24,579 nt of DNA from Syncephalis plumigaleata (lineage: Eukaryota; Zoopagomycota; Zoopagomycetes; Zoopagales; Piptocephalidaceae). Under the pieces are notes generated by a model. The model did no database searches, was not told the origin of the DNA, and saw nothing but the letters and a program-made list of their open reading frames with translations. Each line of letters begins with the position of its first letter. Within the stretch, counting starts at the first letter, position 1. Positions 1-23,214 of the stretch are shown here, in pieces. The translations under genes and the position numbers were made by a program. The stretch spans positions 1 to 24,579 of the forward strand of contig JAIXMF010000199.1 in the NCBI GenBank assembly GCA_025201365.1. Direction: 5' to 3'.

Positions 1-483
1 TTAGTAGGAATAATGATATAAGCAATAGAGCTGTTTAAATAGCAGAGTACACGCTTGTAGTCGGTTCATATGAATCACGCATTATATCTGTGCAGAATAG
101 TTGAATCAACAGAGAATTCATCGTGCAATGACAACGATTGCTGACTCATTAATACCATAACATATACGCTCTTTGAACTCACTGCCGAGTAGGATAATTT
201 TATTGAATTACCTTCTAAATAAACAGCTGATCGTTAATAGACATGAACACGGGAATGAGCAAAATATTGAATATGTATGCAAAGGGTTGCGAATGAAGTA
301 GAAAACAAAGTAGGGGAGCAGTATTGAGATAAATAGACAAAGCTGAATGAACAGAATAGAACAAGAGAAGACGAGTTAAGGCTGACGCTAAGCAAAAAGA
401 ATAACAGAAAGCAGTAAACAAAGAATAGAATAACAGTATGGCAGAATAGTTGCTATTGGGAATGTGTATGTTAAAGTGAAAGA

Positions 484-735
484 AGGAGTAAGTAGAATGC
501 AGATGACACGAAGAAGACGCGTATTACTGAGAAAGTAAACAGGTAAATAAAAGGAAAAGGAATAACTAGCATAGAGCCAAGAGGAAGAGGACGTATGTTG
601 TTTACTGACAAGTGGAATGTAGTTGACACAAAGAAGACAATAGCGGTAAAGAGGTAAAGGGAAACAAGGGAAACAAGGAACCAACTAGAATGCGGTTAAC
701 ACGAAGAATACGCGTGCTATGTAAAGAAGTAAACA
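484..735 (-). repeat. Degenerate ~65 bp repeats downstream of left kinase
   Basis: Read on the minus strand, three imperfect units share the pattern TTTAC-Y-T-rich lead, CGCGT-TTCTTCGTGT, then a GCATTCTA-like tail. They are the mirror of 12441-12692. Several open frames cross this stretch, but they are Ser/Tyr/Leu/Cys-rich translations of biased DNA and I do not regard them as proteins. The units lie 250-500 bases past the kinase stop, so they could be 3' UTR or intergenic. Confidence 0.55.
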
Positions 736-988
736 ACAAGGGGAATGGGCAATAGGTGGAATAGTGAATACATGCAGTGTGAAACGACAATAGTGACAAG
801 CAGGTGTATGTAGTGGAACAGTAGAATGATGAAGATAAGCATAGTGAATAAAGAGAGCAATAGTAGAATGAATGGAGTAGCAAGTATGGAAATGTTTGCA
901 TGCAGTAATTTAAATTGTTAATGACAATAGTAGTACATTTATTGAACAGAATTGTATGGTACATTAGTGATGACAGTTAAAAGCGCCG

Positions 989-3542
989 TTATCGCTTTGC
1001 TGGTGGCTCAGACAGGTCAGATTGTAGGAAGCAGTCAAGCTTTCGCTTTGCTTCCTGCGCGAATTTAAGCCATGGATGCTCTGCAGCATCCACGGCCGTC
1101 ATGCGTCGGGCCGGATTAACATGGAGAAGGCCATTAATAAAACGTTTCGCTAAACATGATTGATTGCAATTAGTGGATTGTACTAGTGTAATAATAATAG
1201 CGTACCTTCTACCATGGGCTCATTAGAATTTATAATTTTAAATGGCGTTTGCTCATTAAAAATTGTCTTGATGTACTCTTCATAAGTGTATTCATTTTGA
1301 TCCTTCATGAATGGATACTGACCTGTAACATACTACGTTAGCTATCGTTAATTTTAAGTAAAAATTAACTTACCGCTTAACAAATAATACGTAAGTATAC
1401 CTAGGCTCCATAGATCGGCGCTTTTGTTGAAGCCGATATGTGAGCCGTGGAGATGGGCAACCTTCTCTTTGCCACCATCGCCTTGTTTGGCAAAAAAATC
1501 AACAACAGCGTTTACATCCGTGCCGCTCAAAAGGACTTCGGGTGCCATGTATTCTGGCGTGCCAATAGGCCCATTGGTATTTGTGTTTGAGCTTGTGAAT
1601 ATAAGCGACAGCCCAAAATCTGCCAAGAGGGCGCATGCACATTTCTTGTCTTTGAAAAGAATGTTCTCGGGCTATACTTGTGTTAATATTTATAATAAAG
1701 CAAATAACCAAATAACTTACCTTGATATCTAGTTGTAAATGAATTACATTAATAAATTATCATTAATGAATACTATTAGTTAATCATAAGCATAATTACT
1801 TACCAAGGTGAGCTATGTTGGCCTCGTGCAGATCCTAATAGTGTATGGGTTAATATGGTTTTGATATTAATTATGGTTGTATTACTTACTTGAAGGGCTA
1901 ACAGAATTTGCCGGACAATTGTCTTGACCTTGGTTTCAGGGAGATATGGAGGATTTTTGCTAATGTAGTCTCTTAGACTGCCTCCTTTAGCTAGGTCGGT
2001 AACAACAAACGTGCCATAGTCATTTATGTTGAAACTAATGGCACGTAGTATATGCTGTTGTTGTCGAAACTTTTGCATTATGCCCCATTCATTCACCAGT
2101 GTCGTATCGTCGCTACCGGCTTGTTTGATCGCGACTTCTTCTCCGGTAGTGCACGATACCCCCTTGTATACTGTGCCGAAAGCACCGCTAGATACGCATG
2201 TTAGCTATTCATTATAGAACTTCCCTGCATTTAACTATTTGGTCACCTACCCGCCGAGACGCTCTGTGGTGTGATAATAACCACCCAGCATCTGTATCGT
2301 GTTAATAGTAATATTGTATGTATTTGTCTTCATTTACCTGTATGTAATAAACAGGTGACACCTGCTCTGATTCTGGTTGTTCTAGTGCGGTATATATAAA
2401 ATTGTCTATATATATTGTTAGCTCAAGATTATAAGGAAAGCTGTAACTTACAATTATAAATGCTTATCTTAATAATACCAACATTTCCAAATGTACTGCT
2501 TTCATCTTCCTGCTTATCGTTTACTACAGAAATGATTAACATGCATATTTGACCGCGCATACCAATAACTTACTAGTTAAGGCAACAGAGCCTCCATTCT
2601 AATAAATGATTAGTTGAACATTCAATATATTTGAGCATAGTACTTACTGTTATGTGAATCATACCATTCTCCTAATGAGCTGCAGGTTAGATTACATTCA
2701 TCGTTTAATATGATTATTATCTTACCTCTGATATATTAAAAACACAGATCTTATCGAGAGGAAGTTTATAATTACTGATGTATTGCAATTAGTAAGTATA
2801 GCAAGGCGACATAGTAGCAACTTACCAGTCATCTTCATTACCGAATGATAAATTGCCGCCACGGTAAAGTAGCAATTCTATAGATAGGTTAGTTAGTGTA
2901 GCCAATATCATTTAAACATAGCTTACGTTGCTTATCCTCATCTACCGTTACCCACCCTACTAGCTTCGCGCGTTTCTCCTGCTTCAGCTCGAGCCACTCA
3001 AAAGGCACATGAATAAATTTACTATGCTTTTTTTCTACACCTGTACCACCGCCGCCAGCAGCTGATAGTTGTGCTGGATTCGGTAATGCCTCCGCTGATT
3101 GAACAGGCACCGGCTCCGAGGTAGCACCAGTGGCAGTAGTAGTAGAAGCGATAATAGGAGAGATGGCAGTGGTAGTAGCAGGAGAAGTGGCGGGAGCGGG
3201 GACGAGAATAGGAGAGATGGCAGGAGAGATGGCAGGAGTGGGAATAGGAGCAGAATTAAAAGCGGCAATAGGTGCTCTTCCGTCGTTAATACCAGCAGTA
3301 GTGGCTGGTATTATAATAGGCGCGGACTTTGATGCTGGTACTAGTATTGGAGCTGAAACTGAAGCTGAAGATTTAGTGCTGTTACTGCCATTGCTGGCAC
3401 TAATAGACACGGCACCTTGCTGCAGTTCGTCTCCCAAGGTAAGTGGAGTCGCGGCATTCGTAAGAGTATCGCGAATCGCAGCCTTGCTTGGTGTTGACAC
3501 GTCGCTTTTGTTGTTGGCAGCTGGACCGGCACCTTGTTCCAT
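989..3542 (-). CDS. Chk2/Rad53-like FHA-protein kinase, intact copy (14 exons)
   Basis: A Ser/Thr kinase of the CHK2/Rad53 checkpoint type, a family that signals DNA damage in the nucleus. The spliced frame is 619 aa from the ATG at 3542. Residues 1-165 are Ala/Pro/Ser/Thr-rich and probably disordered. Residues 173-302 resemble a degenerate FHA domain (LSFGNEDDC region), lacking the usual GR and SxxH residues. The kinase domain has the glycine loop GGGAFGTV near 316-322, VAIK Lys337, a probable helix-C Glu349, a catalytic loop HLDIKPEN with Asp426/Lys428/Asn431, DFG at 446-448 and APE at 471-473. A roughly 25-residue insert follows APE before ADLWS. The C terminus ends in PPAKR, a possible nuclear signal as in CHK2. 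Thirteen GT-AG introns are inferred; exon 11 is only 8 nt. HRD reads HLD. Exon 1 spans 2927-3542 and the stop is at 989-991. The FHA assignment is weaker than the kinase assignment. CaMK-type kinases are the alternative family. Confidence 0.88.
2927..3542 (-). other. Exon 1 of intact kinase: low-complexity N terminus
   Basis: This exon encodes about 165 residues rich in Ala, Ser, Thr, Pro and Ile, with repeated AISPI/APIPTPA-like short units, then the start of the FHA-like region. The complementary strand is also open over much of this stretch because of the skewed composition (3130-3555 plus); I treat that as a shadow. The donor is placed at CAA-C/gtaagc because this joins in frame to LLLYRGG in exon 2. 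Confidence 0.75.
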
Positions 3543-3770
3543 TCTGAAAGCGTAATTGTTGAGTATATCACCGTAAGAGTATGAACAGCGGGACTGGAGC
3601 CGTATGGGACTTAAGTAAAAGCTTGTGCGTAAGCCTAGGTTGAACTAGATAGTGGATAGAACTAAATGAGTAGCAGAATATGAGCTTGTTCATGGCCTAT
3701 TACCTACCGTCGCCATCACTAGTGGCTTTATATGACTCAGTACACTACGTCATATAACTGTAGCTTCAGC

Positions 3771-3959
3771 TTATACCGCTACACTTCCTCTAGGACGCTT
3801 TGTACCTGGGAATGTCTCAAACTCATACTGAGCAGAACTGAGCAGCTCCAACACTACAATAATCACATGTTTTTTACGATCTTTGCCAATACTTGACCAA
3901 TTTCTACGCGGCAAATTTGCTTGTATAGCTTGACACTTGACTAAATACGCTGTACACAT
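3771..3959 (-). CDS. Small unidentified ORF upstream of left kinase
   Basis: A 62-codon frame on the same strand as the kinase, ending about 230 bases before its ATG. It is mirrored exactly at 9223-9411. The peptide has a basic middle (DRKKH), a hydrophobic stretch (VIIVVLELL) and a basic C-terminal segment (TKRPRG). It starts with ATG, but an acceptor-like gtatttag lies just inside the frame, so it could be the last exon of a spliced gene. I do not recognise it. It may be chance: the two copies are identical because the arms are, which says nothing about selection. Confidence 0.22.
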   Translation of the reverse strand: MCTAYLVKCQAIQANLPRRNWSSIGKDRKKHVIIVVLELLSSAQYEFETFPGTKRPRGSVAV

Positions 3960-5231
3960 TTAATGTAGATATCTTTATTCATGATAAATTTCTAGGGCAT
4001 ATAAGATATTGGTCGTCAAGATAAACAAGCAAAGTGACTGCGCACTTGCATCGTCTTTATTTGGAAGGCGGTTTCACTCTGCGTAAAGTAGTCACGATTT
4101 GTCTGATTATTGACAAAGGACCCGCACCGATACCGTTTACCAAGATTTCCATCCATCCATCCATCTTTTACTGACGTTTATGACGTAGGCAATTCATCGT
4201 ATTCTTCCAACGCTATTGACATGTCAATTCCGATATCGCAAACTATCGTTTTTCGTTTTTTGTCCACTTACGTAACACAACGCGTCCAAAAAATTCTCAC
4301 ACCGTTATTCCACTTATGCACTGCAGCCACGTCACTACAACATCACACTGCTACCTAGCTTAATCCTGTGCATGTCATCATCGTAAACTGTTATTTAATT
4401 CTAGCCTATCGGAACTAACTGACTGCACACTGCACCCGTTACCTTCCTCAACTGTCTACGTCTTTTGCGCTTTTTATTTTTCTTTCGTTTTCCACCATCA
4501 TTCTGCTATTCTTTCCTTGTAATGGCACTTTCTACATAATACTATCGCTTATATACATAGAATGAGTTATTCTTTATTGTATTTGTTCGTATGGCGTTAA
4601 TAATAAGTATACTATTAGGTATTATATATTTGCGCTTTATTTGCTTGAAAATACACATGCATGGGACATTGGTTGTTGGATCTACAGCAGAAAGTAGCAG
4701 CTACTTAAGCGTTGGGACTGGTGCCGGTTAAAGAACGCAATAGTGCATTGAGATTAAAGTTCACCCACGAGCGCTAATTACCCAATTCTTAAGTAAGCTG
4801 CTATGGGCTGTAGTAATCCGCAATCAATGTAAACGATATTTGAACGTCTTGAATAGTTGGAAGGCTAATCAACGTAGCATAGTTCTGCTATTACAAGACC
4901 CTCATTTATCGCGGTAGGTGGATGTTGTGTATGTCCGCTATTACGCAGATCGAAAGATTGCTCAATAGTATTCCGTGGGGAATTCTAGGACATACAACGG
5001 CATCCGACTCGCTACCCTTTTGCTACTAACTATTTTGATTAATTAGATAGCCGTCTATTCATATTACGAGGATACACGCAACGCACAGCAGTAACCAGAA
5101 GGTAAGTAAATATGGCCACTCGTGCATACAATCAATACTAATAGCTGCCGTTTACTAATTATACTCTTTATTATTCATTTACAACGCTATCAACCATTTA
5201 ATTGCTGCCATTATAGTCTAAACATTGCAAT

Positions 5232-5347
5232 CATAGGAAGCATATTTGGGTTGCCTAAGCCAGCATTGTTTGGCTTAGGAGGGATAGGGGTAGCTTACTG
5301 GTCTATGGCCGGTATTGCTTTGGGTGTACACAAATATGCTTCCTATG
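5232..5347. repeat. Nested inverted repeat at inner edge of left arm
   Basis: A 17 bp perfect stem (5232-5248 with 5331-5347, core aggaagcatattt) encloses a 9 bp hairpin (5254-5262 cctaagcca with 5271-5279). It lies 37 bases from the arm/spacer boundary. The same stretch is inside an 87-codon open frame (5122-5385) whose second half is Gly/Ala-rich and hydrophobic. An intron-like gtaagt...atag precedes it, so that frame's start is doubtful. It could be a tiny MITE-like element, a structured RNA or coincidence. No target-site duplication was seen. Confidence 0.7.
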
Positions 5348-5429
5348 CGGGTTTTCCTTCACTTAATAAACATATTATAACATAATACAATCAACTTAAT
5401 AACAGTGGATATTGATTACGTTTATCTTT

Positions 5430-6637
5430 TTGCATTCTCATCGTCACTTGATAGACCAATACACTTTACATGAACTACATTGCTCTGCCACGTTAATTAG
5501 CAATGCCTATGAAGTATTCTCGTTCAATAAAGGTATGTTGATAAGAAGTGTGAGCAGCATACGCAACGGTAGAATTAATATTTGCTTTGTTTATTGTAGC
5601 TATTCAGGAATTGAATCGCTTTACCAACTCGCAACTATCGGCGTCCTACTTTGAATCTATCAAGGAGCGGCTTTACGTTGACGACAAGTTATCGTTGGCA
5701 CGAAGGTCGGCACAGACTGCCGTATACCGCGTAAGAAGCCATTGATACTTGGTATGCAATTGCAGCTAAGCAAGAAATACTGCATAGATAATTGAGGTGT
5801 ACACACGCGCACTCGCACCAACTACTTGTCATTTAGCCGAGGAGATTCAGCTTTTCTCCTCGTCGAGTTGGTCGACACCGCTTGACAGCGTATTCCAGTC
5901 GGGATGGATATCTCTGGTAAACACTTGCAATTACTGAGCTATGTGTGGTCTAACACTCGAGCATTGGCAATGAATAGGATGATCGTTGGCATAATATTGC
6001 TTTGGAGCAAGACTGGATAGTGCTACGACACCTTTGTAGTCAGTATTACCAGCTAGTCGAGAAGGTGCGGCAGGCCAAGTAAGTGCTATCTGCAGTATAC
6101 CAAATGATTTGTTTACAAATTTCATTGTCTGACAAGGGAACCAAGGCAAGCGAGCAAATCGATCTGTCACTAGAACTAGAAGACAGAGCAATGTCTCCAC
6201 TAGGCCAACTGCTACAGAAATACAGTAAGATAATAACAATAGCGATAGTGATATTATTTGTACATATTTACTAAGCAATATGCATTAGCATCACAACTAC
6301 CTGAACTGTTCTTATGTGCATCGGTTAATATTGCTGCACAGTCGACATTAACCACAAGAAATGACACTGTCCTTATTAGTGAAACGATATCATTACCAAG
6401 TAAGTATGAAGTATGCAGTATGAGTGTGCCATGATAATGACTATTAATCTACAACGTAATAGACACTATGAACGGTGCATCTGGCCAAATGATTCTACAT
6501 TTATCGGCACGACATAAATGCCGAGATGTTGGAGCTATCGATCTGATCAGCCGGAATGTCTATGCAATCGATGCCGACTTGTTGTGAACAATAACAAGGG
6601 ACATGTCATTACTACTGCTATGCATTCATATAACTAA
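5430..6637 (+). pseudogene. Mitochondrial-type isoleucyl-tRNA synthetase, 3' fragment, copy 1
   Basis: IleRS charges tRNA-Ile. This fragment covers only the anticodon-binding and C-terminal zinc-finger regions, as in bacterial and mitochondrial IleRS. Seven exons can be joined: 5430-5532, 5600-5730, 5788-5916, 5978-6078, 6151-6224, 6289-6399 and 6463-6637. Diagnostic stretches are LIDQYTLHEL, LSASYFESIKERLY followed by ARRSAQTAVYR, LAPTTCHLAEEI and FQSGWISL. The zinc finger is KC-x-RCW then CLCNRC, but it needs a one-base shift at about 6522-6526 (tgccgagatgttgg), so the last Cys pairs are out of frame. The Rossmann domain with HIGH and KMSKS is absent upstream, where the palindrome arm begins. 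It is therefore a truncated and frameshifted copy. Some splice choices, especially the acceptor at 6150, are judged by protein fit. Confidence 0.85.
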
Positions 6638-7315
6638 TAGCAACATCCCATCGATGGTGTCCTAGCAAGCCTATTGAATAACGACCCCATTCATTCGATC
6701 ATCCTGAACATATAGAACCAAGTTGTCAGACACATACCAATTATAAATTGTTACTTTATCATACTGTATTCGCGTACGATATTCACTATTAGTTGAATGG
6801 ACTAGAATGATCAGCTAGCAATTATTACTACTAATGATACCATCATCATCATCTGTCTATTAACATCCAGATGGTATGATCAATTATAGATATTGATACA
6901 CGCGATACTACTATTATGCAATCTATGCTACATTAATTACTGCCAGCATAGCGAACACTCGATTATTACCATTGACGGCATTTCCATATGAGTATGGGCA
7001 ATCGTCATCTCAATCAATAGATTAGACTGAGCATATCACATGGCTGACATACCGCAGCAAGTATTCGGTAATTAGAATGGAGTCGGATGTTATTCTCGGT
7101 CAGTGGGTGGACTAACCGTTTCAGTCGTCGTCAAAACCCAGCAAGACTAATCACCTAGTATAGATTCATCCATGACATACACCATTTGCATTAATGTAGA
7201 ACAATGATTGCTCGAAGAATCAGCATATAGCTATTGTAAAGATGGATGTTTATTCCGTAAAAGCATTGGCAAGAATATCATAGCGAGTACATCATAATAA
7301 AATCTGTGTTTACGC
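6638..7315. other. Non-coding 3' flank of IleRS fragment, copy 1
   Basis: No credible coding frame was found. The stretch is AT-rich with scattered catcatcatc and tagaatgg motifs. It is duplicated together with the IleRS fragment (21300-21977), so the duplicated segment was genomic and not a processed transcript; the retained introns agree with this. Confidence 0.6.
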
Positions 7316-7797
7316 GGTATTAGAATGTGCACACAATGGACAGCTTGTTTTTATTGTTATGTGTATGATGGTAGTAGAATGGAATAAATGACTTGCATTA
7401 CTGATGGAAATGCCGGAATAGTAGAATGGAATGAGTGTATGGAATCATTGATGCTGGCTGAAAAAGAGGAACGAGTATGCTAAGATACAATGTTGATTTG
7501 ACAGGTAGAAGGCAATGAAGCAATAATGGGATAGGAAGGGATAGAATAGAAAGAGTAGTAATGCAAATGGTATACAACAATGACACGTCGATATAGATCA
7601 AAATGATTCATGTTTATTAATATTGCTAGTGGATGCTTGTCAATGATGGATGGCAATGAGTGATGGCAGTAAGCATTAGCGTGGTTGATTATCCTGGTAT
7701 ACTGTCGTTGTTGCTGAATATTAATTGATAGACATTTAGAATGGGAATTAGTACATATTGTCTGGATGTCGTCTCTTGTATCAGCAGGGAATAAAGC
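7316..7797. other. Unique right end of palindrome spacer
   Basis: 482 bases between the direct-repeat end and the right arm. It includes the 93 bp dispersed repeat at 7334-7426 and AT-rich sequence. The minus-strand frame at 7398-7601 is hydrophobic low-complexity translation without a recognisable family, so I leave it out as a gene. Confidence 0.5.
7334..7426 (+). repeat. 93 bp dispersed repeat, copy 1
   Basis: It aligns without gaps to 16323-16415, from caatggacag through gtatgatggtagtagaatgg and on to ggaatagtagaa, with scattered substitutions. This copy is followed by further tagaatggaat motifs. It lies 0.7 kb after the IleRS stop; the other copy lies 0.3 kb after the eIF5B stop. It could be an old short interspersed element or a shared 3'-end signal. 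Confidence 0.75.
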
Positions 7798-7834
7798 TAT
7801 GTTATAATATGTTTATTAAGTGAAGGAAAACCCG

Positions 7835-7950
7835 CATAGGAAGCATATTTGTGTACACCCAAAGCAATACCGGCCATAGACCAGTAAGCTACCCCTATCC
7901 CTCCTAAGCCAAACAATGCTGGCTTAGGCAACCCAAATATGCTTCCTATG
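7835..7950. repeat. Nested inverted repeat at inner edge of right arm
   Basis: Mirror of 5232-5347: outer 17 bp stem 7835-7851 with 7934-7950, inner 9 bp stem 7903-7911 with 7920-7928. It starts 37 bases inside the spacer-arm junction. Confidence 0.7.
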
Positions 7951-9222
7951 ATTGCAATGTTTAGACTATAATGGCAGCAATTAAATGGTTGATAGCGTTG
8001 TAAATGAATAATAAAGAGTATAATTAGTAAACGGCAGCTATTAGTATTGATTGTATGCACGAGTGGCCATATTTACTTACCTTCTGGTTACTGCTGTGCG
8101 TTGCGTGTATCCTCGTAATATGAATAGACGGCTATCTAATTAATCAAAATAGTTAGTAGCAAAAGGGTAGCGAGTCGGATGCCGTTGTATGTCCTAGAAT
8201 TCCCCACGGAATACTATTGAGCAATCTTTCGATCTGCGTAATAGCGGACATACACAACATCCACCTACCGCGATAAATGAGGGTCTTGTAATAGCAGAAC
8301 TATGCTACGTTGATTAGCCTTCCAACTATTCAAGACGTTCAAATATCGTTTACATTGATTGCGGATTACTACAGCCCATAGCAGCTTACTTAAGAATTGG
8401 GTAATTAGCGCTCGTGGGTGAACTTTAATCTCAATGCACTATTGCGTTCTTTAACCGGCACCAGTCCCAACGCTTAAGTAGCTGCTACTTTCTGCTGTAG
8501 ATCCAACAACCAATGTCCCATGCATGTGTATTTTCAAGCAAATAAAGCGCAAATATATAATACCTAATAGTATACTTATTATTAACGCCATACGAACAAA
8601 TACAATAAAGAATAACTCATTCTATGTATATAAGCGATAGTATTATGTAGAAAGTGCCATTACAAGGAAAGAATAGCAGAATGATGGTGGAAAACGAAAG
8701 AAAAATAAAAAGCGCAAAAGACGTAGACAGTTGAGGAAGGTAACGGGTGCAGTGTGCAGTCAGTTAGTTCCGATAGGCTAGAATTAAATAACAGTTTACG
8801 ATGATGACATGCACAGGATTAAGCTAGGTAGCAGTGTGATGTTGTAGTGACGTGGCTGCAGTGCATAAGTGGAATAACGGTGTGAGAATTTTTTGGACGC
8901 GTTGTGTTACGTAAGTGGACAAAAAACGAAAAACGATAGTTTGCGATATCGGAATTGACATGTCAATAGCGTTGGAAGAATACGATGAATTGCCTACGTC
9001 ATAAACGTCAGTAAAAGATGGATGGATGGATGGAAATCTTGGTAAACGGTATCGGTGCGGGTCCTTTGTCAATAATCAGACAAATCGTGACTACTTTACG
9101 CAGAGTGAAACCGCCTTCCAAATAAAGACGATGCAAGTGCGCAGTCACTTTGCTTGTTTATCTTGACGACCAATATCTTATATGCCCTAGAAATTTATCA
9201 TGAATAAAGATATCTACATTAA

Positions 9223-9411
9223 ATGTGTACAGCGTATTTAGTCAAGTGTCAAGCTATACAAGCAAATTTGCCGCGTAGAAATTGGTCAAGTATTGGCAAA
9301 GATCGTAAAAAACATGTGATTATTGTAGTGTTGGAGCTGCTCAGTTCTGCTCAGTATGAGTTTGAGACATTCCCAGGTACAAAGCGTCCTAGAGGAAGTG
9401 TAGCGGTATAA
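9223..9411 (+). CDS. Small unidentified ORF upstream of right kinase
   Basis: Exact mirror of the 62-codon frame at 3771-3959, in the same orientation as the kinase copy that follows. Not recognised. It could be a terminal exon, a short upstream gene or chance. Confidence 0.22.
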   Translation: MCTAYLVKCQAIQANLPRRNWSSIGKDRKKHVIIVVLELLSSAQYEFETFPGTKRPRGSVAV

Positions 9412-9639
9412 GCTGAAGCTACAGTTATATGACGTAGTGTACTGAGTCATATAAAGCCACTAGTGATGGCGACGGTAGGTAATAGGCCATGAACAAGCTC
9501 ATATTCTGCTACTCATTTAGTTCTATCCACTATCTAGTTCAACCTAGGCTTACGCACAAGCTTTTACTTAAGTCCCATACGGCTCCAGTCCCGCTGTTCA
9601 TACTCTTACGGTGATATACTCAACAATTACGCTTTCAGA

Positions 9640-12191
9640 ATGGAACAAGGTGCCGGTCCAGCTGCCAACAACAAAAGCGACGTGTCAACACCAAGCAAGG
9701 CTGCGATTCGCGATACTCTTACGAATGCCGCGACTCCACTTACCTTGGGAGACGAACTGCAGCAAGGTGCCGTGTCTATTAGTGCCAGCAATGGCAGTAA
9801 CAGCACTAAATCTTCAGCTTCAGTTTCAGCTCCAATACTAGTACCAGCATCAAAGTCCGCGCCTATTATAATACCAGCCACTACTGCTGGTATTAACGAC
9901 GGAAGAGCACCTATTGCCGCTTTTAATTCTGCTCCTATTCCCACTCCTGCCATCTCTCCTGCCATCTCTCCTATTCTCGTCCCCGCTCCCGCCACTTCTC
10001 CTGCTACTACCACTGCCATCTCTCCTATTATCGCTTCTACTACTACTGCCACTGGTGCTACCTCGGAGCCGGTGCCTGTTCAATCAGCGGAGGCATTACC
10101 GAATCCAGCACAACTATCAGCTGCTGGCGGCGGTGTACAGGTGTAGAAAAAAGCATAGTAAATTTATTCATGTGCCTTTTGAGTGGCTCGAGCTGAAGCA
10201 GGAGAAACGCGCGAAGCTAGTAGGGTGGGTAACGGTAGATGAGGATAAGCAACGTAAGCTATGTTTAAATGATATTGGCTACACTAACTAACCTATCTAT
10301 AGAATTGCTACTTTACCGTGGCGGCAATTTATCATTCGGTAATGAAGATGACTGGTAAGTTGCTACTATGTCGCCTTGCTATACTTACTAATTGCAATAC
10401 ATCAGTAATTATAAACTTCCTCTCGATAAGATCTGTGTTTTTAATATATCAGAGGTAAGATAATAATCATATTAAACGATGAATGTAATCTAACCTGCAG
10501 CTCATTAGGAGAATGGTATGATTCACATAACAGTAAGTACTATGCTCAAATATATTGAATGTTCAACTAATCATTTATTAGAATGGAGGCTCTGTTGCCT
10601 TAACTAGTAAGTTATTGGTATGCGCGGTCAAATATGCATGTTAATCATTTCTGTAGTAAACGATAAGCAGGAAGATGAAAGCAGTACATTTGGAAATGTT
10701 GGTATTATTAAGATAAGCATTTATAATTGTAAGTTACAGCTTTCCTTATAATCTTGAGCTAACAATATATATAGACAATTTTATATATACCGCACTAGAA
10801 CAACCAGAATCAGAGCAGGTGTCACCTGTTTATTACATACAGGTAAATGAAGACAAATACATACAATATTACTATTAACACGATACAGATGCTGGGTGGT
10901 TATTATCACACCACAGAGCGTCTCGGCGGGTAGGTGACCAAATAGTTAAATGCAGGGAAGTTCTATAATGAATAGCTAACATGCGTATCTAGCGGTGCTT
11001 TCGGCACAGTATACAAGGGGGTATCGTGCACTACCGGAGAAGAAGTCGCGATCAAACAAGCCGGTAGCGACGATACGACACTGGTGAATGAATGGGGCAT
11101 AATGCAAAAGTTTCGACAACAACAGCATATACTACGTGCCATTAGTTTCAACATAAATGACTATGGCACGTTTGTTGTTACCGACCTAGCTAAAGGAGGC
11201 AGTCTAAGAGACTACATTAGCAAAAATCCTCCATATCTCCCTGAAACCAAGGTCAAGACAATTGTCCGGCAAATTCTGTTAGCCCTTCAAGTAAGTAATA
11301 CAACCATAATTAATATCAAAACCATATTAACCCATACACTATTAGGATCTGCACGAGGCCAACATAGCTCACCTTGGTAAGTAATTATGCTTATGATTAA
11401 CTAATAGTATTCATTAATGATAATTTATTAATGTAATTCATTTACAACTAGATATCAAGGTAAGTTATTTGGTTATTTGCTTTATTATAAATATTAACAC
11501 AAGTATAGCCCGAGAACATTCTTTTCAAAGACAAGAAATGTGCATGCGCCCTCTTGGCAGATTTTGGGCTGTCGCTTATATTCACAAGCTCAAACACAAA
11601 TACCAATGGGCCTATTGGCACGCCAGAATACATGGCACCCGAAGTCCTTTTGAGCGGCACGGATGTAAACGCTGTTGTTGATTTTTTTGCCAAACAAGGC
11701 GATGGTGGCAAAGAGAAGGTTGCCCATCTCCACGGCTCACATATCGGCTTCAACAAAAGCGCCGATCTATGGAGCCTAGGTATACTTACGTATTATTTGT
11801 TAAGCGGTAAGTTAATTTTTACTTAAAATTAACGATAGCTAACGTAGTATGTTACAGGTCAGTATCCATTCATGAAGGATCAAAATGAATACACTTATGA
11901 AGAGTACATCAAGACAATTTTTAATGAGCAAACGCCATTTAAAATTATAAATTCTAATGAGCCCATGGTAGAAGGTACGCTATTATTATTACACTAGTAC
12001 AATCCACTAATTGCAATCAATCATGTTTAGCGAAACGTTTTATTAATGGCCTTCTCCATGTTAATCCGGCCCGACGCATGACGGCCGTGGATGCTGCAGA
12101 GCATCCATGGCTTAAATTCGCGCAGGAAGCAAAGCGAAAGCTTGACTGCTTCCTACAATCTGACCTGTCTGAGCCACCAGCAAAGCGATAA
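9640..12191 (+). pseudogene. Chk2/Rad53-like FHA-kinase, frameshifted copy (14 exons)
   Basis: Second copy of the kinase at 989-3542. Exons inferred: 9640-10253, 10303-10354, 10406-10454, 10509-10532, 10582-10606, 10657-10728, 10775-10842, 10889-10929, 10993-11290, 11346-11376, 11452-11459, 11509-11806, 11858-11974 and 12031-12191. All thirteen introns are GT-AG. Exon 1 has two one-base losses against the left copy, near 10134 (ggtgg to ggtg) and in an A run (seven to six) at 10147-10152. A TAG at 10144-10146 therefore closes the frame after 168 residues, before the FHA-like and kinase parts. Everything downstream matches the intact copy with no further net indel. It is either a recent pseudogene or an intact gene carrying homopolymer-type sequencing errors. 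As written it would give only the low-complexity N terminus. Confidence 0.85.
11452..11459 (+). other. 8-nt microexon inside the kinase catalytic loop
   Basis: The bases atatcaag lie between a 75-nt intron ending tttacaactag and a 48-49 nt intron starting gtaagtt. Including them gives the in-frame catalytic motif HLDIKPEN; skipping them destroys it. The mirror is at 1721-1728 in the left arm. Confidence 0.82.
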
Positions 12192-13174
12192 CGGCGCTTT
12201 TAACTGTCATCACTAATGTACCATACAATTCTGTTCAATAAATGTACTACTATTGTCATTAACAATTTAAATTACTGCATGCAAACATTTCCATGCTACT
12301 CCATTCATTCTACTATTGCTCTCTTTATTCACTATGCTTATCTTCATCATTCTACTGTTCCACTACATACACCTGCTTGTCACTATTGTCGTTTCACACT
12401 GCATGTATTCACTATTCCACCTATTGCCCATTCCCCTTGTTGTTTACTTCTTTACATAGCACGCGTATTCTTCGTGTTAACCGCATTCTAGTTGGTTCCT
12501 TGTTTCCCTTGTTTCCCTTTACCTCTTTACCGCTATTGTCTTCTTTGTGTCAACTACATTCCACTTGTCAGTAAACAACATACGTCCTCTTCCTCTTGGC
12601 TCTATGCTAGTTATTCCTTTTCCTTTTATTTACCTGTTTACTTTCTCAGTAATACGCGTCTTCTTCGTGTCATCTGCATTCTACTTACTCCTTCTTTCAC
12701 TTTAACATACACATTCCCAATAGCAACTATTCTGCCATACTGTTATTCTATTCTTTGTTTACTGCTTTCTGTTATTCTTTTTGCTTAGCGTCAGCCTTAA
12801 CTCGTCTTCTCTTGTTCTATTCTGTTCATTCAGCTTTGTCTATTTATCTCAATACTGCTCCCCTACTTTGTTTTCTACTTCATTCGCAACCCTTTGCATA
12901 CATATTCAATATTTTGCTCATTCCCGTGTTCATGTCTATTAACGATCAGCTGTTTATTTAGAAGGTAATTCAATAAAATTATCCTACTCGGCAGTGAGTT
13001 CAAAGAGCGTATATGTTATGGTATTAATGAGTCAGCAATCGTTGTCATTGCACGATGAATTCTCTGTTGATCAACTATTCTGCACAGATATAATGCGTGA
13101 TTCATATGAACCGACTACAAGCGTGTACTCTGCTATTTAAACAGCTCTATTGCTTATATCATTATTCCTACTAA
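12192..13174. other. 3' flank of right kinase, pyrimidine-biased
   Basis: Mirror of 1-988. The plus strand is rich in C and T, which leaves long frames open (12216-12491, 12293-12574, 12492-12788, 12755-12961). Their products are Ser/Leu/Tyr/Cys-rich with no domain, and one frame is broken by the 4-base arm difference near 12294, so I do not call them genes. The degenerate repeats at 12441-12692 lie here. Confidence 0.5.
12441..12692 (+). repeat. Degenerate ~65 bp repeats downstream of right kinase
   Basis: Three units start near 12441, 12513 and 12628. Each has a tttac-ttta lead, a core like acgcgtattcttcgtgt (12461), attgtcttctttgtgt (12534) or acgcgtcttcttcgtgt (12654), then a tail like gcattctagtt or acattccactt. 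Spacing is uneven. Confidence 0.6.
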
Positions 13175-13647
13175 GACGCTCATTGACTAGTAGTGCTATG
13201 AAATATTCCATTAATGCATTAATCTTTGTAAACTGCCTGTCAACTCCTTACTTATACGCATATCGTACAGCTAAAAGCGAAGGAATGGCGATAATAGTCC
13301 TACTGAAGTTCGTTAGCCGCATACTATGAAATTAAATGACATAAGCTGGCATTCTGACAATAATTGATGATACACTAGTTACGCCGTAGCATAAGGTCTA
13401 TATCATTATTAATAGCGTGAAATAACTCGGCATACTAATTGTGCCATACAATGCTCTTACTGCAATATGGCGTATGATTAACATACAATGGTATGCGATA
13501 TTAAGCATGTGAATGCATTAGCAATAGTGCATGTATAGATTGTATATTAGCTAACATCATCGTCATCATTGCCGAGTAGAATCGACTTATCATCTATGTT
13601 TACGACGATAGAAACGTATGGAGGAAGCACTTGCTGCCTGATCAAAG
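13175..13647. other. Unique sequence between palindrome and eIF5B
   Basis: 473 bases with no recognisable exon. A real eIF5B would need a Lys/Glu-rich N-terminal coding region here, and none is visible in any frame. An acceptor-like ctgatcaaag ends this stretch just before the eIF5B homology. Confidence 0.5.
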
Positions 13648-16035
13648 GATGATCTTCGCTCGCCCATTTGCTGTATTCTTGGTCACGTAGATACGGGTAA
13701 AACCAAGCTATTGGATAAGGTGCGCATTATTTGATTAGCTATTACCAATGCTAACCATTATTTCATATAGATCCGACAAACTAATGTTCAAGAAGGTGAA
13801 GCTGGTGGTATTACCCAACAAATTGGTGCCACCTACTTCCCAATTGATGCGGTTAAGCAAAAGACGGAATGCTTACCCGAGGTGATTCGATATTGCCACC
13901 GATCCACTAGTCAATAGTTATTAACGCTCGCTTATTAATAGGACATCAGAATTGAATACAAACTGCCTGGTCTATTGGTCATCGACACGCCAGATCACGA
14001 GTCATTCACTAATATACGATCTCGTGGTTCATCGCTGTATAACATCGCCATTCTCGTTGTAGATATTGTGGTAAGTAGATTGAGATAACGCGAATGGAGT
14101 ACATGAATACATTAGCTGATTGATTCATTCATTTGCACTATTATTATGTAGCATGGTTTAGAGCCACAAACACTCGAGTCATTACGTCTATTGCGTGATC
14201 GTAAAACGCCATTTATTGTTGTACTAAATAAGGTTTGTACACATCGAGGAATATACAAACAGAACAACTAATAATAATGTGCAACGATATCGTTCGTATA
14301 GATTGATCGTGTTTACGACTGGAAACCAATTCCAAACAATACGTTCCGCGACTCGCTTAGTAAACAAAAGCAACACGCACAACGGGAATTTGAGGATCGT
14401 ACCAAAAAAGTCATATTGGAATTTGCTGAACAAGTGAGTCTAGTCGTTAGCTATTATAAAAGTAACACTAATAAATCATTCTATCCTCTACGATACGATA
14501 CGATACAATACGATTAGGATCTCAACTCGTGTCTTTACTATGAGAATAAGAATCTTGGCCGTAATGTGTCGCTCGTGCCAACTTCAGCCATTACAGGCGA
14601 GGGTATTTCCGATCTACTTAACCTGCTGGTGCAACTAACTCAAACGCGTATGAACGACAAGCTAATGTATTTGTCGGAACTGGAGTGTACAGTATTGGAG
14701 GTAAAGGTGATAGAAGGCCTCGGCACCACCATTGATGTTGTATTGTCGAATGGCGTGTTGAACGAAGGTGACCGTATTGTAGTATGCGGCTTGAACGGAC
14801 CTATCGTCACCAATGTCCGAGCACTGCTTACGCCGCAACCATTACTGGAATTACGAGTTAAGATAAGGGAGACAAGCAATAGTGTCTTGGTTAGTAGCAT
14901 CAGCTTACCTGTAAATATACAATGATGATAGTCGGCCTACGTGCATCACAAGACCATTAAAGCCGCCATGAGTGTTAAGATATGCACGCCAGAACTAGAA
15001 AAGACCATTGCCGGTTCCTGTCTCATGGTGGTTGGTCCGGATGACGATGAAGACGATCTCATGGACGAGGTCATGTCCGATCTGCAAACATTGTTGAAGT
15101 CGGTCGACAAAAGTGGTCGCGGTGTTTGTGTACAAGCATCGACTATTGGTTCACTGGAAGCATTGCTGGAATTCCTGCGAGTATCAAAGATCCCCGTGTC
15201 CGGCATTAACATTGGTTCCGTGCATAAGCGTGACATTATTCGCTGCTCGACCATGTTGGAACGAGCCAAGGAATTCGCGGTAATGCTATGCTTTGATGTC
15301 AAGGTCGACAGGGATGCGCAAGAGTTGGCAAATGAAATGGGCATACGTATATTTACCGCCGATATCATCTACCATCTATTCGATCAATTTATGGCATACA
15401 ATAAGATAAATCTACTAGTGCACATAGCATAACAATTGATTAGCAATGATGATGATGAACTAATATGGATGATTTTATTGTGTTATGTTATTTAGAAAAT
15501 TATGAAACAAAAACGCAAGGATCAAGCACCTGAAGTGGTCTTCCCTTGCGTATTAAAGATCGTGCCCGGTTGTGTATTCCACAAGCGTGATCCAATCGTT
15601 TTGGGTGTCGACGTGGTAGAGGGTAATCTTCGTCCCGGTACATCGATCTGCGTGATTAACACGGATCCCGAGACGAAGGAGAGAGAAAGCATCACGCTCG
15701 GTAAGGTGACCAGTATCGAGCAGAATCACAAGAGTGTCGACCTTGTAAAGAAGGGACAAGCTACCGCGGGTGTTGCCGTTAAGATTGAATGTCCCGTCTA
15801 TGAAACACCAAACATGGTAGGTTGTCACTTTACAGAACAGAATGAACTATACAGCAAGGTAAGCGCGACACGACTATTGTTGTACTAATGGATAGCATGG
15901 CTAGAGTATTAATCATCATGTTATTAGATATCTCGTCAATCAATTGATATTCTTAAGGAAAGCTTCCGTAACGATGTGTCCAAGAAGGAATGGGCATTGA
16001 TTGTTAAACTAAAGAAGACGCTGGACATTCAATAA
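13648..16035 (+). CDS. eIF5B conserved core, 5'-truncated and with lesions (9 exons)
   Basis: eIF5B is the IF2-family GTPase that promotes ribosomal subunit joining. Exons inferred: 13648-13719, 13771-13881, 13942-14070, 14152-14232, 14302-14433, 14518-14862, 14932-15405, 15496-15858 and 15928-16035, giving 604 codons with no internal stop. Motifs: GHVDTGKT (P-loop), [10 protein letters not shown] (switch I), [26 protein letters not shown] and the C-terminal [12 protein letters not shown]. The core is full length to the C terminus, but the long charged N-terminal region and any in-frame start are missing. Switch II reads IDTPDHE where the family has DTPGHE. Introns 6 and 7 begin ataagg and ataaat at the places where protein alignment puts the donors; the other donors are GT. 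A cryptic donor gttaag (14857) and gtgcac (15418) could rescue splicing with small changes. I infer a decaying or partial copy. The lack of stops leaves function possible. Confidence 0.85.
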
Positions 16036-17240
16036 ATAAAATGACATGCCATTAGGTAGTAAACTACATAAGAGTGCATTTTTGTATTAATTACATACAG
16101 CGTGAACGAGTAATGATGATCTACGTCACATGGCTATTCAATACATGGCTATATCATTATTTATAATTATGTAACATGATTATGAATTAATAAACGGAAT
16201 TACCGTATTTACTTGATGTTCTTGCCGTGTACCAATACATGTATGATTATTTGGATTATTACGAAATAATAGAAAATAATGATGCATCCTGTGCAAGTAT
16301 AAGCATAGTAAATGGTAGGAAGCAATGGACAGTTTATCTTTATTGCTATGTGTATAATGGTAGTAGAATGGAATAAATGGCTTACATTACTGATAGAAAT
16401 GTCGGAATAGTAGAACGAGTAATGTAGAATGGAATGTAGTCAATATCGTTGACAGTTGGATGTTCTAATTGTAATATTGTTAGTGTATTGTAATAAATGA
16501 ACTTACCTGCAATTAATACTTATGAATGAATGAATGAATGGATTGTAATAAAGTAATAAAATATGTTATGTCCCCATCATATCCGCTATCTTCGGACCGG
16601 GCCTTCCCATCCATAAGTGAAGCGCCATGCTAATACAGTTGAATGTCTTGCGACAAATATCACTATATTACTAAAAATTAATGTAATTGCATTTGGAGTA
16701 CGTGCCTATCAACATATGTACGTCCACCCACCACAGGTGAACATACATCGCTTCGTGTGGTTGTGCAAATTAATACTAGCAAGTAACCATTACTGCTATC
16801 GTATTAATTACGAAGCCGTTGATAGGGATGTTGTCGTCACAAATGCGCTTACATCAACATTTAGCAATAGGGACTACGGTGGCCGGTATATGGGCATTGA
16901 TCACAAGCGGAAACACACACACTTGTGGCAATGACCATATACACATTGACTGATATGGACGATGATTGTTGGCTAGGCGACCACCGCCATAGAACAATGC
17001 TGCCACGGCCGTAGTCGTTCGCGATATATTCAACCGCGCACATGCAATGGGATCAGTAAACTAGCAATGTAATGTATCTAAATACATATGGGCTAGTTTG
17101 GACATAACATAAAAAGGGAGGGAGGATTTTGATGTACATAGGCATATTACAGTTTGAATAGAATAGCGCGAATAAAGAATGATTAAACATACACGAAAAC
17201 ATACCATTAAATAACGTCAGTCATCATAATATCAAGTAAA
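16036..17240. other. Intergenic, mostly without features
   Basis: Contains AT-rich sequence, the second 93 bp repeat (16323-16415) and a (TGAA)4-5 run at about 16523-16541. A 105-codon plus frame at 16617-16934 has no recognised domain or splice context, so I leave it uncalled. An AATAAA just after the eIF5B stop (about 16034-16040) is a plausible polyadenylation signal. Confidence 0.45.
16323..16415 (+). repeat. 93 bp dispersed repeat, copy 2
   Basis: Gap-free partner of 7334-7426 with scattered substitutions, mostly transitions. It starts at caatggacag and ends at ggaatagtagaa. It is followed, like copy 1, by more tagaatggaat motifs. Confidence 0.75.
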
Positions 17241-18738: not shown

Positions 18739-19548
18739 CTAAATTGCTATTTTGCGGACGATTGTTATTGTTATTGTTATTGTATTGCCAACGACGATTA
18801 TTGCTGTAGGTATTGTTGCGATTCCTCTGGAAGCAATTTCTCGCAATGTGACCAAGTTCGTTACACGCATAGCAACGCCGTGCATACTACTGTTGTTATT
18901 ATACCTGTGATTGTTATTGTTTCGATTATTCTGGAATCCTAAACTGTTTAGTGCTTGAACTAACGCATCAATATCCATAGATGTGACATTGCTATTATCT
19001 TCCTTTCTTGCTTCGTTTGAGACTCTTTCACTTCTGCAATGTTGTCGAGAATAATAAAGGGCGCGTGTGTTGAGGAATGTATCATCAAGACTGCAAGGAT
19101 TTGCTCGAAGGGACTCAGTCAAATAGTCTACTGGAAGTGTTTGTCGGAATGCCGCAATGAGTTCTTCGTCTGCTGCGTTGGGGATACGACTACGAATGAC
19201 CATGAACCTGGTAATATGTTCTTCTAAATCGAGATTTTCCTTCCACTGCAAACTAGATAATTGCAACCGAGCAATGGAAGCTGACTGGTTGCCTCCATAA
19301 CGTACGAGGATACCCTTTCTAAACTGTTCCCAGGTCTTAGGTGCCTTGGGACTAGCACGCATGGATTGATGCCACGTTGCCGCTGATCCTCCTAATCACT
19401 GAACAGCCCAAACTATTTTCTGTGCTTTATTGTAATTGCTAATTTTCCATACTTGTTCAACAAGGTTGCACCAACGGTCCACAGGAAACTCATTTTCTCC
19501 GGTGAACTTCGGGACTGATGATAAAGGTGATCGATCAGCCTGCACCAT
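18739..19548 (-). pseudogene. Retrotransposon Gag remnant
   Basis: Likely start is the ATG at 19546-19548. The frame reads a Gag-type region (KFTGENEFPVDRWCNLVEQ, later LGGSAATWHQSM and TWEQFRKGIL), matching the capsid-like retrotrans_gag family. A TGA at 19396-19398 interrupts it before LGGSAATW. The frame then runs open from 19395 down to 18739 with an Asn-rich linker. A frame change before the C-terminal knuckle (C-x2-C-x4-H-x4-C at 18833-18874) makes the open frame miss it. At least two lesions are therefore present. Confidence 0.78.
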
Positions 19549-20089
19549 TGATAATAACAATAAAGCAATACCTTACTGAAGTGACCGACGCTTGAAAATG
19601 AAGACGATATGTAAACAATAATACTAAGAGACTTGCTGAAACCTTTTGACGAAAGCGGTGTCAATAATACGGTGACAGTAAAAGAGAGAACGGTTGCCAC
19701 TAGTGTACCAACTACAATTGACATGAGATGTTGACTAATGAATCCTTCTCTTTAATAGAACATAAGAATATTTATATAGGTGTCATTCGTATATAGTGTG
19801 AATAAATTATGCTCCTCACGCCATGTGCAAAGTGCTGATCAACGAATTCTCATCAACTTGCATGGACGCGCATTTTAATGCATATATGCTAAATTGAATT
19901 ACTCTAGCTTTAATTACGACCTATACACCTACTTGTCTCGCTCACCTTATAGAATTGATGATGATAGTTATCGCTACCAATGAAGCATGCATGACTAACA
20001 CTGATTTATCATTATTATTACGCTTGACATTGTTGCGTTCCGTCAGTGGGCATTTTTACGGTGATAATGGATATTGCTCACGTCAACCG
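19549..20089. other. Stretch between Gag remnant and IleRS copy 2
   Basis: No gene is supported. Part may be the 5' leader or LTR of the retroelement, but I found no matching direct repeat. The last bases, tggatattg at 20068-20076, pair in register with 5406-5414 before the big direct repeat. Confidence 0.4.
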
Positions 20090-20091
20090 TT

Positions 20092-21299
20092 TTGCATTCT
20101 CATCGTCACTTGATAGACCAATACACTTTACATGAACTACATTGCTCTGCCACGTTAATTAGCAATGCCTATGAAGTATTCTCGTTCAATAAAGGTATGT
20201 TGATAAGAAGTGTGAGCAGCATACGCAACGGTAGAATTAATATTTGCTTTGTTTATTGTAGCTATTCAGGAATTGAATCGCTTTACCAACTCGCAACTAT
20301 CGGCGTCCTACTTTGAATCTATCAAGGAGCGGCTTTACGTTGACGACAAGTTATCGTTGGCACGAAGGTCGGCACAGACTGCCGTATACCGCGTAAGAAG
20401 CCATTGATACTTGGTATGCAATTGCAGCTAAGCAAGAAATACTGCATAGATAATTGAGGTGTACACACGCGCACTCGCACCAACTACTTGTCATTTAGCC
20501 GAGGAGATTCAGCTTTTCTCCTCGTCGAGTTGGTCGACACCGCTTGACAGCGTATTCCAGTCGGGATGGATATCTCTGGTAAACACTTGCAATTACTGAG
20601 CTATGTGTGGTCTAACACTCGAGCATTGGCAATGAATAGGATGATCGTTGGCATAATATTGCTTTGGAGCAAGACTGGATAGTGCTACGACACCTTTGTA
20701 GTCAGTATTACCAGCTAGTCGAGAAGGTGCGGCAGGCCAAGTAAGTGCTATCTGCAGTATACCAAATGATTTGTTTACAAATTTCATTGTCTGACAAGGG
20801 AACCAAGGCAAGCGAGCAAATCGATCTGTCACTAGAACTAGAAGACAGAGCAATGTCTCCACTAGGCCAACTGCTACAGAAATACAGTAAGATAATAACA
20901 ATAGCGATAGTGATATTATTTGTACATATTTACTAAGCAATATGCATTAGCATCACAACTACCTGAACTGTTCTTATGTGCATCGGTTAATATTGCTGCA
21001 CAGTCGACATTAACCACAAGAAATGACACTGTCCTTATTAGTGAAACGATATCATTACCAAGTAAGTATGAAGTATGCAGTATGAGTGTGCCATGATAAT
21101 GACTATTAATCTACAACGTAATAGACACTATGAACGGTGCATCTGGCCAAATGATTCTACATTTATCGGCACGACATAAATGCCGAGATGTTGGAGCTAT
21201 CGATCTGATCAGCCGGAATGTCTATGCAATCGATGCCGACTTGTTGTGAACAATAACAAGGGACATGTCATTACTACTGCTATGCATTCATATAACTAA
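20092..21299 (+). pseudogene. Mitochondrial-type isoleucyl-tRNA synthetase, 3' fragment, copy 2
   Basis: Copy of the fragment at 5430-6637 with the same inferred exons (add 14662) and the same one-base frame break in the KC-x-RCW zinc finger at about 21184-21188. It again lacks the aminoacylation domain: the sequence upstream belongs to the retroelement region. Just before the identical block the two copies would encode different residues (WILLTSTV here, WILITFIF in copy 1). The homology thus reaches slightly further than the identity. Not functional as a synthetase. Confidence 0.85.
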
Positions 21300-21977
21300 T
21301 AGCAACATCCCATCGATGGTGTCCTAGCAAGCCTATTGAATAACGACCCCATTCATTCGATCATCCTGAACATATAGAACCAAGTTGTCAGACACATACC
21401 AATTATAAATTGTTACTTTATCATACTGTATTCGCGTACGATATTCACTATTAGTTGAATGGACTAGAATGATCAGCTAGCAATTATTACTACTAATGAT
21501 ACCATCATCATCATCTGTCTATTAACATCCAGATGGTATGATCAATTATAGATATTGATACACGCGATACTACTATTATGCAATCTATGCTACATTAATT
21601 ACTGCCAGCATAGCGAACACTCGATTATTACCATTGACGGCATTTCCATATGAGTATGGGCAATCGTCATCTCAATCAATAGATTAGACTGAGCATATCA
21701 CATGGCTGACATACCGCAGCAAGTATTCGGTAATTAGAATGGAGTCGGATGTTATTCTCGGTCAGTGGGTGGACTAACCGTTTCAGTCGTCGTCAAAACC
21801 CAGCAAGACTAATCACCTAGTATAGATTCATCCATGACATACACCATTTGCATTAATGTAGAACAATGATTGCTCGAAGAATCAGCATATAGCTATTGTA
21901 AAGATGGATGTTTATTCCGTAAAAGCATTGGCAAGAATATCATAGCGAGTACATCATAATAAAATCTGTGTTTACGC
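21300..21977. other. Non-coding 3' flank of IleRS fragment, copy 2
   Basis: Repeat of 6638-7315. No coding frame recognised. Confidence 0.55.
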
Positions 21978-22008
21978 TGTAATGGAATGAGCAAGCCATT
22001 TTGCCTGC

Positions 22009-22048
22009 TTATTTAGTGTGTGGTATAAAAAGGACGCGCACTAAATAA
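22009..22048 (+). promoter_or_regulatory. TATA-box promoter inside a perfect dyad
   Basis: ggtataaaaagg (22022-22033) is a strong TATA-box match. It sits at the centre of a perfect 10 bp inverted repeat, ttatttagtg (22009-22018) and cactaaataa (22039-22048). A C/T-rich leader follows (ttctttctttctttc near 22070-22085). Transcription would start about 25-35 bases downstream on the plus strand and serve the gene at 22446. Confidence 0.65.
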
Positions 22049-22445
22049 TGTCACATCATCAACTCATTCATTTCTTTCTTTCTTTCAACACTAAAAAGCA
22101 CTCACTAAAAGCTATTCACTTGAACTTTAAACGCTGTTTGTTTTCTTGTAGCTTACTAAACCATAACTGGTAAGTATATTGTTGATTATGTTGCTGCTGT
22201 ATCTCCCTTGTATGTTGTCTGTACGTATTCGTCTCTGTTCTACCCGTTGTATGTTCTCTCGTGTGTAATAGTCTCGTGTGCATGACTATGCTATTTACAC
22301 TGCAAGCGCTCTTCTCAAATACTTTCTATTGTATGTACTCCATATGTGCTTCTCCCCACTACATACTTGTTCTATGTTACTCACGCTGTTCTAATTAATT
22401 GATAGTACAAGCATCCATCTGCATCTACCTGTATTCATCTGCAGT
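22049..22445 (+). other. 5' leader with an intron
   Basis: Non-coding leader of the gene at 22446. A donor ctg/gtaagt at 22170 and an acceptor atctgcag ending at 22444 would remove a 275-base intron that stops one base before the ATG. The intron is longer than others in the window and pyrimidine-rich. Confidence 0.5.
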
Positions 22446-22883
22446 ATGTTTTCAGCTTACCAATCCATCTTTATGCCATCTGTGCACGGTGCACAGGGCA
22501 ATAACATTGTGCCACCACACGTCACGGTAAGTGATTATGGCACTAGCAGTTGAAACGCGTTACTAATACGTCACACTTAGTGTGGTATGGTGGGCTTACG
22601 CCCGTTTTATAATTCAGAAGCGACATCCGCGTCAATGATCGTTCGTAAGCGATCACACTCCGAAATTGAGTTAAAACTAAAAAGCACTTCGGTGCATAAA
22701 AAGACTCGTCGTCTCGAGCCTGAGCGCAAGCTCAGTATTGCGCAGCGCATCAAACAACGCGCTATTGAGCGCAAAAAGCTCTGGCGCCAGTGGAATCGCG
22801 AGCGCCTAAGCCGCATCGGCGCTACGCCTCCCCCGCTCTCGCTACTACCTCTCTCCCTCATATTGATCCTTTCTATATCTTAA
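22446..22883 (+). CDS. Small basic protein of unknown function (2 coding exons)
   Basis: Exon 22446-22526 (ATG, 27 codons, MFSAYQSIFMPSV start) joins in phase to 22581-22883 across a GT-AG intron with an actaat branch-like site, giving 127 aa. The second exon is rich in Arg and Lys (VRKRSHSEIELKLK, KKTRRLEPERK, then QRIKQRAIERKKLWRQW), which suggests a nuclear or nucleic-acid-binding protein with a helical basic segment. The last 20 residues are hydrophobic Leu/Pro/Ser and may be out of the true frame. No family recognised. A TATA promoter and leader intron upstream support a real gene. Confidence 0.6.
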
Positions 22884-22959
22884 ATCCCTCTCCTATCCCC
22901 GACTTCTGCTTCATCCGCCACTACCACTCCTCCTCCTCCTCCAACAATACCCCACGCCA

Positions 22960-23214
22960 ATGGAAGACGTCCAATATCAACGGGACATCGCTCCATTGGC
23001 GATCATCTTTAAACCTAACACCACGGCTCGACCCAGCCGTCCTCCTCTCCGCTCTCGCCGCAATTCCCGCACCTCCCGCCCTCATCTTCCTTCTCCTCCC
23101 ATTTCCCCTACCACCCCCTCTCCCTCCAAGTCTGGTTCGGTAGGGTCGGCCAAACCAGACAAACCACAACGCAAGCATGATCGTCGCGTGCGTCGTGTGA
23201 TACCCGATGAATAA
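22960..23214 (+). CDS. Proline/arginine-rich open frame, possible C-terminal continuation
   Basis: An 84-codon frame, different in phase from the preceding exon. It is rich in Pro, Ser and Arg (RPSRPPLRSRRNSRTSRP, then KHDRRVRRVIPDE) and ends at a run of TAA codons. A 3' UTR-like intron (gtaagt at 23228, acceptor near 23279) follows. The basic, low-complexity style resembles the end of a nuclear protein. No GT donor occurs between about 22805 and 22965 to join it to the upstream exon by a normal intron. Either an indel separates them or this is chance openness of C-rich DNA. Confidence 0.3.
   Translation: MEDVQYQRDIAPLAIIFKPNTTARPSRPPLRSRRNSRTSRPHLPSPPISPTTPSPSKSGSVGSAKPDKPQRKHDRRVRRVIPDE

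Follow-up and report, generated by a model that had tools for sequence, protein, structure and literature searches.

The DNA analysed here, referred to as the window, is the complete 24,579-bp contig JAIXMF010000199.1 (C111) of the Syncephalis plumigaleata assembly GCA_025201365.1, which holds 32,639,069 bases in 383 contigs. More than half of the window is occupied by a palindrome in which two inverted arms, each carrying a copy of a protein kinase gene, are separated by an asymmetric 2413-bp spacer (5385-7797). Its parts are as follows:

1-5384, unstranded: left palindrome arm, an inverted copy truncated by the contig start
989-3542, minus strand: left copy of the kinase gene, 14 exons, 619 amino acids, open frame
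3543-5384, minus strand: kinase upstream region, X
5384/5385, unstranded: left centre junction, X to S-head
5385-7333, plus strand: S-head, spacer, a dispersed repeat with a weak tRNA-ligase anticodon-domain-like fragment
7334-7797, plus strand: D, spacer, a dispersed 464-bp module that elsewhere joins an eIF5B-like module to the kinase upstream region
7797/7798, unstranded: right centre junction, D to X
7798-13174, unstranded: right palindrome arm, inverted copy of the left arm
9640-12191, plus strand: right copy of the 14-exon kinase gene, whose exon 1 lacks a single nucleotide at two places in the assembly

A first-pass annotation, made by a model from the letters alone, had described near-identical inverted arms of about 5.38 kb around a 2.4-kb spacer, with only four small indels between them and a left arm starting at base 1, and each of these points is borne out. 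Global alignment of the arms gives 0 substitutions over 5377 aligned bases and 4 indels, which lie in left-arm coordinates at 105 (1 nt), 883-886 (4 nt), 3034 (1 nt) and 3047 (1 nt). As nothing of the contig lies beyond the window, the left arm is truncated at base 1, and in the genome it may extend beyond 5384 bases. The four indels are probably consensus errors, because the 0:4 ratio of substitutions to indels departs from the 147:10 found between the right arms of C111 and of contig C157 (Fisher p = 3.7e-5). Long, nearly identical inverted arms around a unique spacer are the form that a palindrome maintained by gene conversion takes. An element of about 115 bp with inverted ends (ATAGGAAGCATATTTG), by eye resembling a miniature inverted-repeat transposable element, is also present at 5232-5346, with a mirror copy.

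The left kinase copy has GT-AG borders at 13 of 13 introns. Its translation has a low-complexity N-terminus and a Pfam Pkinase match (3.2e-53), within a protein that contains HLDIKPEN, DFG and APE, which we take to be the familiar named kinase motifs and which mark a kinase domain with its catalytic residues. The best solved relatives among PDB chains are CAMK-type, with Rad53 and CHK2 in the best 60 of 915, and by these matches the catalytic domain is CAMK/Rad53-like. No Pfam FHA match was found in the kinase protein or in the pre-kinase-domain region of eight copies, and a profile of these eight regions matched no chain among the PDB sequences up to E = 10. The protein thus shares its catalytic domain with Rad53 and CHK2 and differs from them in its low-complexity N-terminus and in having no detectable FHA domain; the FHA label is not supported by these searches, all made at the level of sequence, and we have dropped the name. 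A complete FHA-kinase gene had been assigned to each arm, of which an open left copy stands; the frame of the right copy is broken, as assembled, by its two exon 1 deletions. Nor is this a doubled single DNA-damage kinase gene, as had been supposed, because exon 12 has 34 matches in the genome.

The search that gave this count returned 54 rows with all 64 of 64 candidates scored; the 34 are those at 45% identity or more, and they leave out a 44% row on C299. Eighteen of the 34 form nine head-to-head pairs within single contigs, the minus-strand copy on the left and the plus-strand copy on the right, within 14 kb (C111, C72, C373a, C373b, C24a, C24b, C24c, C290 and C324). With C157 and C383, whose second arm is truncated where the contig begins, the total comes to 11 palindromes, some of them embedded in the long contigs C373 (969 kb) and C24 (741 kb). 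The first 400 bases of contigs C90 and C373 are the same and lie within the kinase, as would be expected if a further palindrome had broken the assembly there. That several contig ends fall inside such arms is a warning for users of the assembly. Among the matches listed in our literature searches there was no report of this kinase family. At C383:9001-9895 the kinase upstream region contains a tandemly repeated unit of 297 bp.

Projection of the gene model onto 17 kinase copies gave eight open frames and a ninth, C373aR, open from the conserved region onward. Stops in the other eight accompany a misaligned exon 1 (C72L, C72R and C373bR) or indels (C111R, C90, C373aL, C373_530k and C56). Among the nine copies with usable open frames, the ratio of nonsynonymous to synonymous divergence (dN/dS) is 0.27-0.54 with dS up to 0.85, in a table that by admitting open copies only favours intact genes and in which one exon border of the C373bL row is mis-projected by a codon. 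Even so, such low ratios across dS up to 0.85 mean that purifying selection acts on these open-frame copies.

The inner end of X stops at the same aligned base in all 16 junctions compared, with a few substitutions nearby; 5 of these adjoin S-head and 11 adjoin D, and same-base centre junctions occur even in palindromes whose kinase regions are about 21% apart. The left centre junction of the window recurs in C157, C373a, C373:47k, C56, C24a and C24b, and the right one at the 10 other D-side junctions compared and in C24b. C111, C157, C373a and C24b each have one S-head and one D junction; in C72 and C373b an eIF5B-like module is flanked by a D on either side, and C24a has S-head on both sides (by eye), as does C290 according to its matches. 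Each kind of junction is also present in copies with no palindrome in evidence (C373:47k and C56; C201, C356, C329 and C373:535k), which makes recombination at D, between kinase-S-D and eIF5B-D-kinase copies, a plausible origin of the palindromes. S repeats are joined head-on near S position 1164-1167 at three loci (C24:13624-16593, C290:13373-16349 and C157:198428-201397), and so provide another type of palindrome centre that recurs between loci.

The sequence comparison of arms covers 9 of the 11 palindromes (all except C290 and C383), in four of them over 236-699 bp only. Substitutions number 0 in 3667 bases in C157, 2 in 4345 in C373b, 0 in 592 near one centre edge in C24a, 2 in 236 in C24b, 4 in 694 in C24c and 11 in 699 in C324. 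From alignment column 1433 to column 5887 the C373a arms are free of substitutions, with one 1-nt indel; their other differences lie in the outermost 1.4 kb and in 20-30 bp at the inner end, a pattern that conversion tracts would leave. In C72, MAFFT gives 9 substitutions before about column 3570, past which an extra tandem unit puts the arms out of register and inflates the count to a reported 447. From one palindrome to another the kinase region is 2.5-22% different, except for C72 and C373b (0.1-0.2%). Arms are thus closer within than between palindromes that share their structure, again except for C72 and C373b, which are equally alike both ways. A tree that omitted C157L agrees: the C111 arms pair with each other and the C373a arms with each other, both with full support, and the arms of C72 and C373b are inseparable.

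The comparison of C111 with C157 bears on how old the palindrome is relative to its arms. The two share their junctions and right flank, and they differ by 1.69% in the flanking module E, 3.62% in the G part, 2.73% between right arms and 3.28% between left arms; their spacers differ by 9.12% as a whole, by 7.7% in S-head and by 15% in D. In the 3647 columns common to the four arms there are 120 sites at which the loci differ, and at every one of the 120 the two arms within each palindrome carry the same base. Provided that C111 and C157 descend from one palindrome, the palindrome would be older than the present sequence of its arms.

We propose that these are old palindromes whose arms have been homogenised by arm-to-arm gene conversion, an explanation that we hold with good, though not full, confidence. 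The window holds one of the head-to-head kinase gene pairs that make up this dispersed family. The palindromic arrangement would predate the present arm sequences, and palindromes would first have arisen by recombination at D, since both kinds of centre junction also exist outside them. Gene conversion would keep the two arms of each palindrome identical or nearly so, occasional crossing-over between arms would invert the spacer, and the second arm could serve in repair, as a template, or raise gene dose. Traces similar to those of gene conversion would also be expected from template switching between arms; we name it as an alternative route because template switching between inverted repeats is reported in yeast both to homogenise arms and to invert spacers (PMC8604942).

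Crossing-over of this kind would give what is seen in C72 and C373b. Their left flanks differ at 0 of 1081 positions and their right flanks at 11 of 1110, and with kinase regions as close as given above, their spacers match only when one is inverted (2.14% different, vs 47% uninverted). Misorientation by the assembler is possible, because the arms are long and nearly identical.

Several observations weigh against this proposal. Homogenisation is incomplete: over a wider BLAST stretch the C373b arms have 9 mismatches in 4778 bases, the whole C373a arms differ by 43 substitutions and 23 indels with MAFFT (17 mismatches and 29 gap openings with BLAST), and the C72 arms have 31 mismatches in 4041 (BLAST) and differ by one unit of a tandem block. 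The sequence is an assembly consensus, in whose making small differences between arms could have been merged. The spacer inversion is seen in one locus pair only, one member being a 28.7-kb contig. Finally, because each kind of junction also occurs outside palindromes, the palindromes might form repeatedly.

This last point leads to the possibility that each palindrome is a separate, recent inverted duplication, produced by a break and fold-back or by recombination at D between near-identical copies, so that the arms are simply young. The absence of substitutions between the arms of C111 and of C157 would follow, and recombination could remake the same junction from copies that already carry it. 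Such an event could account for a single locus, as the first-pass annotation had allowed. It hardly fits as the sole cause where C111 and C157, sharing junctions and right flank, have come to differ at 120 arm sites in the same way in both arms; newly joined paralogues would, moreover, be expected to differ at the start, and C373a and C24b retain differences at their inner edges. We regard recent duplication as unlikely. Another view treats the arms as the two inverted copies of a mobile element, which move as a composite together with the passenger segment between them. This would explain why the arm end at 5384 adjoins two different neighbours at the same base, why the outer flanks differ between units and why a fragment like a host gene lies within the spacer. 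The arms, however, hold a kinase gene of 14 exons, and purifying selection acts on its open copies; when six window proteins were scanned with Pfam, no transposase emerged, and the one Gag-like fragment lies outside the palindrome (target-site duplications were not searched). A composite element therefore seems to us decidedly doubtful.

That the palindrome might be an artefact of library preparation or assembly was a reasonable concern, since C111 begins inside its left arm, C157 and C383 likewise begin inside an arm, C90 and C373 share their kinase-internal start, and the small indels resemble uncorrected read errors. A fold-back read or amplification chimera would, however, be private to one contig, whereas the structure, with its asymmetric 2413-bp spacer and same-base junctions, recurs in other contigs, including C373 and C24. 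This recurrence nearly excludes the chimera that had been offered as one option, and we reject it. C72 and C373b, in addition, share distinct left and right flanks, and the differences retained between arms in C324, C24c and parts of C373a indicate that the assembly does not always merge arms. An artefact is accordingly very improbable. Of the options first raised, a real palindrome is the best supported, with gene conversion as the first-pass annotation had suspected. The gene palindrome is real and recurrent, and gene conversion most likely keeps it uniform.

Exchange seems to extend beyond the arms. Within its own contig the C111 S-head has a copy (20068-21993) from which it differs by only 0.52%, whereas it differs by 7.7% from that in the C157 spacer, which suggests that it was converted from its neighbour. 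In a recombination test on 11 of the 17 kinase sequences (725 informative sites), compatibility between neighbouring sites exceeded that in all 200 shuffles, in each of three spans, and so the kinase copies are mosaics. A bolder extension of homogenisation between arms is that the palindromes constitute a genome-wide recombination network of a fast-evolving kinase family, in which conversion repairs the pairs and exchange between loci makes mosaic kinases. By analogy, such a network could be a diversification system like those of surface-antigen families, albeit for a signalling enzyme. We consider the network decidedly unlikely, and we are just as reserved about the analogy.

Systems of this kind are known. 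Divergent gene pairs in Caenorhabditis have an inverted-repeat structure that is better conserved than its sequence, with a spacer that evolves faster than the arms (PMC1803023). The head-to-head duplicates described here look the same in kind; the worm repeats were shown across three species, whereas our evidence comes from paralogous loci and one related locus pair in one genome, and the kinase palindromes have arms of several kilobases and many copies. In the human Y palindrome P6, arm similarity above 99.9% is ascribed to gene conversion, and inversions are rare (PMC3723533). The kinase palindromes resemble P6 in arm similarity and, if the C72/C373b spacer inversion is genuine, in their rare inversions. 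Conversion in P6 was tracked in 378 Y chromosomes of known relationship, whereas here it is deduced from one assembly, and the kinase palindromes, unlike P6, are spread over several contigs with no known link to sex. The genome of Folsomia candida also contains several gene-bearing palindromes; these have a wide range of Ks (synonymous divergence), and its authors found no support for concerted evolution (PMC5490193), unlike most of the kinase arms compared here, which are nearly free of substitutions.

The kinase palindromes are thus a new example of an already known kind, in many copies within one compact genome. One family supplies no fewer than 11 gene palindromes for side-by-side study, homogenised to differing degrees (arm differences of 0 to 1.6% over the compared stretches), and the effects of conversion tract, spacer and gene function on palindrome maintenance become testable outside known sex chromosomes.

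Neither Rfam nor tRNA scanning produced a match in the window. Its remaining features, with the S repeat given in both its copies, are as follows:

13175-16303, plus strand: right flank E, a module that includes an eIF5B-like gene and has 10 further long copies elsewhere in the genome
5406-7333 and 20068-21993: copies of the S repeat, which has a weak tRNA-ligase anticodon-domain-like fragment
18739-19395, minus strand: retrotransposon Gag-like fragment; the stretch around it has 18 other long copies, at 94-96%
21994-24579: region holding an RRM protein fragment, with 19 other long copies

The eIF5B-like gene (13657-16035, plus strand) runs from a GTPase domain at 13657 to a C-terminus placed by eye at about 16035; it has no N-terminal part, and an in-frame stop lies immediately upstream. 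Its top-scoring chains, which we take to be from yeast (one is labelled KLLA0F23265p), rank above chains that are presumably mammalian, an order that suggests a fungal source. The other copies of E are 94-98% identical in the pieces compared. The tRNA-ligase fragment of the S repeat, presumably of the isoleucyl type, scores 23.0 bits in Pfam, below the curated 25.1, and the repeat has at least 45 matches in the genome, fragments included, with 40 of 151 candidates scored. Over a compared length of 1.5 kb, the stretch at 21994-24579 matches the end of C90 with 99.9% identity, and the adjoining S and G stretches are 3-4% different, so that to judge from these alignments the region with its neighbours is a patchwork.

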